From positions 4,464,001 through 4,528,000 of the forward strand of contig NZ_CP017181.1 of the NCBI RefSeq assembly GCF_001729765.1: 64,000 nucleotides of DNA. Direction: 5' to 3'. Below are positions 10,911-12,776 of the stretch, one piece after another. Position numbers and translations under genes: made by a program. Position 1 is the stretch's first letter. The number at the start of each line of letters is the position of its first letter. Origin of the DNA: Enterobacter kobei. GTDB taxonomy: Bacteria > Pseudomonadota > Gammaproteobacteria > Enterobacterales > Enterobacteriaceae. The notes beneath the pieces were generated by a model that saw nothing but the letters and a program-made list of their open reading frames with translations, was not told the origin of the DNA and made no database searches.

Positions 10911-11474
10911 TCAGCGATGGAAGAAATTAGCCAGCAGGTCATGCCCTTGCTCGCTAAGGATACTTTCCGGATGGAATTGCACGCCCTCAAGATCCCACTC
11001 GCGGTGGCGAATCCCCATGATCTCCTGCGTATCGCTCCAGGCGGTCACCTCAAAGCAGTCTGGCAGCGTCGGCGGGTCAATCACCAGCGAATGGTAGCGC
11101 GTCACGGTTAAGGGATTATTGAGCCCCGTGAATACCCCGATACTGGTATGCGTGACCGGCGACGTTTTTCCGTGCATCACTTTCGCGGCACGCACGATGG
11201 TGGCGCCGAATACCTGGGCAATGGCCTGATGGCCCAGGCAGACGCCCAGAATGGGCAGCTTGCCAGCATAGTGCCGGATAACATCCAGAGACACGCCCGA
11301 TTCCGACGGCGTGCAGGGGCCGGGTGAAATCACAATTTTCTGCGGAGCCAGCGTCGCAATATCGGCCAGAGTCACGTCATCGTTACGGCGGACAACCACC
11401 TCTGCTCCCAGCTCACAAAAATACTGGTAAAGGTTCCAGGTGAAGGAATCGTAGTTATCAATCAGCAGAATCAT
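10911..11474 (-). CDS. pabA: Aminodeoxychorismate synthase, glutaminase component
   Basis: A 187-residue class I glutamine amidotransferase. It releases ammonia from glutamine for PabB, which converts chorismate to 4-amino-4-deoxychorismate on the way to folate. The catalytic triad is visible: Cys79 in LGVCLGHQ and His168/Glu170 in VQFHPES. The N-terminal [10 protein letters not shown] is typical of PabA/TrpG proteins. The flanking order argD-pabA-fic is as in E. coli, and the gene starts 30 bases after the fic stop, so the two may be co-transcribed. TrpG is the alternative, excluded by context. Confidence 0.96.
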
Positions 11475-11504: not shown

Positions 11505-12089
11505 CTACTCAGATTCCCGCGCTTCGCTCACTACTTTGGCAAAGACAGCGTTCAGCGCAGTCAAATCGCCCGTCGCGCCGCTTCGGTTCGCCGCCACCCA
11601 CTGCTCGGGATCGATACCCCGCCAGTCCAGCATATACCCGGCATGAATGGCCAGCTGCTCAAAGAAGACCCGTTGTGCAATACCATTGCCGCTCATAAAA
11701 GGATGCAGCATATTGATTTCACAGTAGTAGTGACTAACTCTGTTCACAAAGGTTTCTTTCTGAAGACCCACCAGATACTTTTCGCTTTCCAGGTCCGCCA
11801 TCAATTCATTGCCCATCTTCTCGATGTACTCGAAGTGGCAGAAAGGAATGTCACCTTTAAAAATATCGTCGGTACGGTATTCGCCCGCCCGCTTCAGCTC
11901 TTTGCGATACAGATGGCGGTGAATAAGACAAAGATGGGGTAAACCGGGCGCGGAAGGCCCGAGCTCCAGCGTCTCAATATGGGGTTCTGAAGGACCATGA
12001 CCTTTTTCAAGGAGACAACTGGCCTGAAGATTGACGTTACGCTGCTGCTCCCAAATACGGGATTTTTGCTTGTCGGTGAGTTTTTTCAC
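11505..12089 (-). CDS. fic: YhfG-Fic fusion: antitoxin N-terminus joined to Fic domain
   Basis: A 194-residue protein in the place where E. coli has two genes, yhfG (55 codons, antitoxin) and fic (200 codons, toxin-like AMP-transferase domain). Residues 1-30, beginning MKKLTDKQKSRIWEQQRN, resemble the start of YhfG. From about residue 38 (IETLELG...GLPHL) the sequence is Fic to its normal C-terminus (KVVSEARESE). The first 40 or so residues of Fic and the second half of YhfG are missing, in frame. The Fic loop is HPFMSGNG (129-136): the usual acidic residue after HPFx is Ser133 and the following arginine is Ile137. An SxxxE element (Ser10-Glu14) is kept. GTG start after GGGAGGCG. No separate yhfG is found upstream. 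Confidence 0.85.
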   Translation of the reverse strand: MKKLTDKQKSRIWEQQRNVNLQASCLLEKGHGPSEPHIETLELGPSAPGLPHLCLIHRHLYRKELKRAGEYRTDDIFKGDIPFCHFEYIEKMGNELMADLESEKYLVGLQKETFVNRVSHYYCEINMLHPFMSGNGIAQRVFFEQLAIHAGYMLDWRGIDPEQWVAANRSGATGDLTALNAVFAKVVSEARESE

Positions 12090-12194
12090 TTAACGCCTCC
12101 CTGAATAGTCCGTTTGCCACAAGTATAAGCAGCAAAACGCGCTTTCGCAGGGAGGGGGCATTACACGGGCGAGCGCCGCCCGTGTCAAAGAGGG

Positions 12195-12776
<582 letters not shown>

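Follow-up and report, generated by a model that had tools for sequence, protein, structure and literature searches.

The 64,000 nucleotides of Enterobacter kobei analysed here (assembly GCF_001729765.1, contig NZ_CP017181.1, positions 4,464,001 to 4,528,000), called the window in what follows, contain a single gene in which the start of the antitoxin YhfG (FicA) is joined in frame to most of the toxin Fic (FicT). We consider it probable that a deletion turned a class I FicT/FicA pair into a single self-regulated chain; the fused protein most likely behaves as class II Fic proteins do, with its brake in cis. Judging from the sequences, related bacteria seem to have undergone similar mergers on several occasions.

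Two genes in one frame

An earlier reading of the window, made by a model from the sequence alone, had proposed an in-frame fusion of YhfG and Fic in one frame of 194 codons (Table 1), and searches of Pfam, NCBIfam and the PDB bear it out. The Pfam family YhfG (PF10832) matches residues 2-28 of the fused protein with 34.2 bits, for a cut-off of 22.6, and the Pfam family Fic (PF02661) matches residues 52-146 with 50 bits, for a cut-off of 24. The NCBIfam equivalog for Fic, PRK10347, aligns residues 38-194 with its positions 44-200 of 200 and scores 253.8 bits; the protein thereby passes the curated cut-off, 181, for membership in the EcFicT-like family. In a search of PDB sequences, EcFicA (5jff_B) matches residues 1-30 with an expectation value E of 5.9e-6, as expected from the claim that the first 30 residues align to YhfG, and EcFicT (5jfz_A) matches residues 31-194 with E 4.7e-66. 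The YhfG part, which had been taken to end at residue 18, extends to residue 28. BLAST aligns E. coli YhfG 1-55 over residues 1-62 of the fusion, but since the Pfam match ends at 28, and the alignment beyond it enters Fic sequence, we take the likeness past that residue to be chance.

In E. coli, yhfG has 55 codons and fic has 200; the two are distinct genes that overlap, and they are flanked by ppiA and pabA. The fusion lacks residues 29-55 of YhfG and roughly the first 45 of Fic, parts that the sequence-only reading had also reported missing. That reading supposed a deletion of about 200 base pairs (bp): there is a deletion, but its size is smaller. In a comparison with five split relatives from the genus, the distance from codon 28 to a common LG anchor is 42 nucleotides instead of 217, a net loss of 175 bp, which puts the YhfG and Fic frames in register. 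The fused frame is the only match to YhfG in the window's genome, searched up to E 1, and no second, separate yhfG was found there, in agreement with what had been claimed. Where a class I FicTA pair has a separate antitoxin, the lone YhfG match sits inside the fused frame, and where a type II toxin-antitoxin system has two proteins, there is one chain. The order of the parts is, by sequence, that of class II, as had been suggested: an inhibitory helix (YhfG 1-28) N-terminal to Fic in the same polypeptide.

Table 1. Features of the fused locus and its neighbours, in window coordinates.
Feature	Position	Strand	Remarks
Fused yhfG-fic gene	11505..12089	minus	194 codons and stop; GTG start at 12087-12089
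YhfG/FicA part, codons 1-28, inhibitory helix	12006..12089	minus	Pfam PF10832 on residues 2-28; EcFicA match on 1-30
Inhibitory motif Ser24-x-x-x-Glu28	12006..12020	minus	Equivalent of EcFicA S24/E28 (available sections of PMC5033356)
Linker, codons 29-39	11973..12005	minus	No clear match to YhfG or Fic
Fic part, codons 40-194, equal to E. coli Fic residues 46-200	11508..11972	minus	Profile and PDB matches
Fic signature HPFMSGNGIAQR, His129, R2 = Arg140	11670..11705	minus	Read from the translation of the frame
GGGAGG, similar to a ribosome-binding site	12096..12101	minus	Sequence
ppiA-like neighbour, upstream of the fused gene	12195..12767	minus	Order as in E. coli
pabA-like neighbour, downstream of the fused gene	10911..11474	minus	Order as in E. 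coli

Inhibitory and catalytic residues

In the crystal structures of the E. coli complex, as described in the available sections of PMC5033356, the inhibitory segment of FicA is S24-R-R-L-E28-G, and both S24 and E28 are bonded to R146, or R2. The equivalent segment in the window is S24-C-L-L-E28-K, the final residues before the linker. The sequence-only reading had chosen Ser10 and Glu14 as the inhibitory pair, a choice contradicted by the complex, in which it is Ser24 and Glu28. Both residues are retained in each of the 33 loci of the window's kind, which we call type A, and so is R2. Position 29 is a lysine in 32 of these loci and a glutamate in the other one; of the class II consensus [S/T]xxxE[G/N], the SxxxE part is present in 33 of 33.

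Other residues at the interface have changed together with their partners. The same sections report that R25 of E. coli FicA contacts T40 of FicT, and that the DPY segment of FicT bonds to R0 (PMC5033356). In the fusion, the equivalent of T40 is deleted, and R25 is replaced by a cysteine in 30 of the 32 fused loci of the genus. The DPY segment is likewise deleted in type A, and R0, an arginine in all 106 split loci, is an arginine in none of the 33 type A loci. The search pattern for DPY also took DPG and DPD, and the flag that it raised for locus L092 stemmed from upstream sequence and was discounted.

These changes can be set in a simple model. A deletion in a class I pair would have left a frame that keeps the inhibitory helix and the Fic core and drops the rest of both proteins. 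The YhfG helix would then occupy, in cis, the groove taken in E. coli by the separate FicA, with Glu28 presumably paired with R2 (Arg140). As with class II Fic proteins, the result would be a brake fixed at 1:1 that the breakdown of an antitoxin could not release; we infer in this way that the fused protein inhibits itself. The predicted model of a protein of another fusion kind, type B, and not of the window's own type A protein, can be compared with known structures: its alignment with class I Fic chains starts at residue 31-32, and its alignment with FICD and C. difficile Fic at residue 1-4. This prediction is consistent with a helix packed in the active site and a salt bridge between the glutamate and R2.

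The reaction itself is another matter. The consensus for AMP transfer is HxFx[D/E]GNGRxxR, and HPFMSGNGIAQR departs from it at two places, with a serine at the D/E position and an isoleucine at R1. Throughout type A the metal-binding D/E position is S, R or N; R1 is retained in all ten loci of type B. Because R1 and the metal-binding residue are missing, AMP transfer by the type A fusion seems unlikely. The transfer foreseen by the sequence-only reading is also doubtful because E. coli Fic showed no AMPylation (PMC5033356).

The fused gene in Enterobacter

Among 61 Enterobacter genomes, the window's included, 32 have the fused gene at full length, 28 have fic and a separate yhfG, and one has no match. 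All 32 fused genes encode exactly 194 amino acids, start with GTG and have no internal stop. The fused form is found in records of E. hormaechei, E. quasihormaechei, E. wuhouensis, E. sichuanensis, E. vonholyi, E. mori and E. cloacae. Records of Leclercia, Lelliottia, Silvania and Huaxiibacter, together with one of E. soli, have the split form. In the databases, the fused kind forms clusters of 2108, 277 and 224 members.

The fused gene is under purifying selection, less strict than that on the split genes. The ratio of nonsynonymous to synonymous substitution rates (dN/dS), given as the median of pairwise Nei-Gojobori values, is 0.10 for codons 2-28, 0.19 for the linker window of codons 29-45 and 0.09 for codons 46-194. 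The corresponding medians of the 28 split loci are 0.036 for yhfG codons 2-28 and 0.063 for fic codons 52-200.

Three minor observations belong here. The proportion of synonymous differences (pS) in the helix segment of the 32 fused loci (12006-12089 in the window) is 0.24, about half the 0.51 of the Fic part; the split loci, with 0.54 and 0.59, do not have this halving. The genome without a match, G051, is 93% complete and may have lost the locus or have a contig gap there. The type A database proteins P0028, P0032 and P0033 are shortened or altered at the C-terminus.

Fusions elsewhere in the Enterobacteriaceae

A scan of 392 genomes of the family yielded a match in at least 179 of them, from which 93 loci were taken for strong or full-length matches and for their spread over genera, a choice that may miss further fusions. 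After L070 and L071 (duplicates of L053 and L055) and L098 (a filler) were left out, 154 loci were classified: 45 are fused by rule and L093 by eye, 107 are split, and L153 has fic only. Type B comprises 10 loci with a linker of their own, Buttiauxella and Cedecea being among the names. Types C (L091), D (L092) and E (L093) are single loci, again with their own linkers, and type F is a metagenomic protein, P0057, from a contig of 1822 bases. The flanks ppiA and pabA are confirmed for the B, D and E loci that were checked (L063, L073, L092 and L093); for type C, ppiA alone was found in the stretch.

The YhfG family scores above its Pfam cut-off in every kind from A to F, though barely in type E (23.8 bits versus 22.6). 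Residue 28 is a glutamate in types A and D, an aspartate in B, C and F, and a threonine in E; an acid is therefore retained in five of the six kinds, and type E has lost it together with the catalytic histidine. Of 105 split loci, 91 have Glu at the same position, 12 have Asp and 2 have Gln, so that an aspartate occurs outside fusions as well. Types A, B and C have lost R0, which D, E and F retain. The type E locus, from genome G230, encodes the shortest fusion, of 182 amino acids, with Thr28 and a serine in place of the catalytic histidine; its product is possibly a protein with the Fic fold that has no catalytic activity.

Among 80 loci from named genomes, labelled by sequence pattern, 23 are fused and open, one is fused with an internal stop (L171), and 56 are split; the labels of three were set by correction, L171 and L233 as fused and L232, on the same contig as L117, as split. 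In a scan of the order, a single query, which reaches near relatives only, matched 84 of 394 genomes, and no listed match outside the family starts before residue 19.

Number of origins

On a tree of 77 Fic cores, with types A, B, C, D and F, the fused and split states require five changes, all of them forced by well-supported (starred) branches. A tree of 148 rows, with types A to E, also requires five changes, at least four of them forced; L155 and L156, which are incomplete, and L102, L117, L124 and L146, which have no match to the anchor pattern, were left out of it. Type B and two split loci from genus g66 group together with support 100/100. In the approximately unbiased (AU) test, a single clade of types A and B is rejected on DNA (p-AU 0.00011, on 64 loci of our choice), and a single clade of all fused loci has p-AU 0.0167 on protein.

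One type A locus, L062 of genus g42, is a mosaic. Its ends resemble the split loci of its own genus, in codons 1-28 (89-90% versus 71-82%), in codons 151-194 (76-77% versus 61-67%) and in the 80 bases upstream, while codons 43-125 in the middle resemble Enterobacter type A (69-86% versus 56-60%). The fusion can therefore move by recombination.

Several points weigh against repeated reduction of a pair to a self-regulated chain. On protein, a clade uniting types A and B is not rejected (p-AU 0.375); on DNA, type A together with the split loci of the genus forms a clade only on a suboptimal tree, which is not rejected either (p-AU 0.477); and the groups tested were defined after the trees or the linkers were known. 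Types C, D and E are one long-branched row each, and type F is one metagenomic protein. Types B, C, D and F have in common a Gln-Arg directly before the core, which leaves room for some common history by recombination. Records of Enterobacter soli stand on both sides, P0040 being fused and ATCC BAA-2102 split, and the constraint on the fused loci is weaker than on the split ones. Finally, on ppiA and pabA (70 rows, L028 and L077 left out), type A is not one clade (p-AU 0.00039); we read this as allele exchange, which fits a fusion that moves.

Competing explanations

The helix could be part of the working enzyme rather than mainly a brake, the fusion fixing an active complex in a single chain. 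The complex of Fic-1 and AntF is a deAMPylase that needs E28 of AntF (PMC13327609, in the sections available), and the acid at position 28, retained in five kinds out of six, disappears in type E alone, along with the catalytic histidine. However, the metal-binding position of type A is S, R or N, which makes a metal-dependent deAMPylase of the known kind unlikely, and we regard the explanation as a minority possibility. We are just as hesitant about the conjecture that the Enterobacteriaceae fused FicTA at least five times because the complex, and not free FicT, is what works, the "inhibitory" acid being catalytic and the life of the pair as toxin and antitoxin having ended.

If instead the YhfG helix merely stood in for the deleted helix 1 of Fic, inhibition being gone, one would understand why a global aligner places it over the Fic N-terminus, why no recognisable piece of Fic helix 1 is left in type A, and why the constraint is weaker than in split YhfG. 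Yet S24 and E28, which are specific to inhibition, are invariant in type A, and class I chains align with the predicted type B model only from residue 31-32, despite having a preceding helix of their own; such a replacement is quite improbable. Even less credit can be given to a deletion scar on its way to being lost, or to an artefact of assembly. The degenerate Fic motif, the altered ends of P0028, P0032 and P0033 and the internal stop of L171, a type B locus, would suit such a product. The sequence-only reading had raised an assembly error beside normal yhfG and fic genes in relatives: those genes do occur, in 28 genomes of the genus, but the artefact fails because 32 of the 61 genomes share the fusion, at a single length and without internal stops. 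Decay is likewise discarded on a dN/dS of about 0.1, and the database clusters of 2108, 277 and 224 members also speak against it.

Relation to known systems

The self-regulated chain that we favour has its closest counterpart in EcFicT/EcFicA of E. coli (PDB 5JFF, 5JFZ), at the orthologous locus between ppiA and pabA, with the same S24/E28 helix and, in the available sections of PMC5033356, a Fic core that also has a hydrophobic residue for R1. The differences are that E. coli has two proteins instead of one, that the fusion has neither YhfG 29-55 nor the first 45 or so residues of Fic, and that R0 and R25 are changed in it. In the same sections, Stanger et al. (2016) describe an Enterobacter "subgroup 2" of FicT that stands out by its N-terminus, has a five-residue deletion, lacks DPY and carries an R0 other than Arg, and a figure legend states that a FicA homologue lies upstream of every FicT shown except one from E. 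albertii (PMC5033356). The fusions agree with subgroup 2 in genus, N-terminus, lack of DPY, R0 and slightly shorter length, but the sections speak of a five-residue deletion and do not use the term fusion (PMC5033356). A global alignment of fused and split proteins puts the YhfG helix over the N-terminus of Fic, with an internal gap of five columns. Subgroup 2 is thus very probably made up of these fusions.

An antitoxin sequence fused N-terminally to a Fic domain is also mentioned for Bep3/1, Bep3/2 and Bep4 of Bartonella, which are secreted effectors from another order (PMC8401265). Among the matches listed in searches of the open-licence literature on Fic, FicTA and antitoxin fusions, no title or abstract describing a YhfG-Fic fusion was found. 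Class II Fic proteins such as FICD and C. difficile Fic also carry an inhibitory helix ahead of the Fic domain in a single polypeptide, but the canonical enzymes retain the full catalytic motif, and the helix of the fusion derives from a separate antitoxin gene. Toxin and antitoxin are joined in one chain, as here, in CapRel and in a covalently linked type II system. CapRel, a fused toxin-antitoxin, reportedly senses phage proteins; nothing at the fused yhfG-fic locus points to such sensing, and presumably neither system is a Fic protein.

The step from a pair to a single chain recurs at one syntenic locus, where split relatives serve as controls, and so offers a natural series for the study of how a two-protein pair becomes a self-contained enzyme. 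The series indicates the smallest part of the antitoxin that selection has kept, a helix bearing Ser24 and an acidic residue 28, and the parts of Fic that become dispensable, the DPY lock and helix 1; it also opens a new approach to the founding Fic protein.

Additional records

Two database proteins of E. coli-like sequence, P0048 and P0049 (the latter with 15 members), each have a single frame that runs from most of YhfG into a longer Fic; they are either recent real fusions or sequence errors. The records L170 (Chryseobacterium sp. 18061) and L171 (Citrobacter sp. 18056, the one with the internal stop) contain near-identical type B loci, so that at least one of the two record titles looks wrong.
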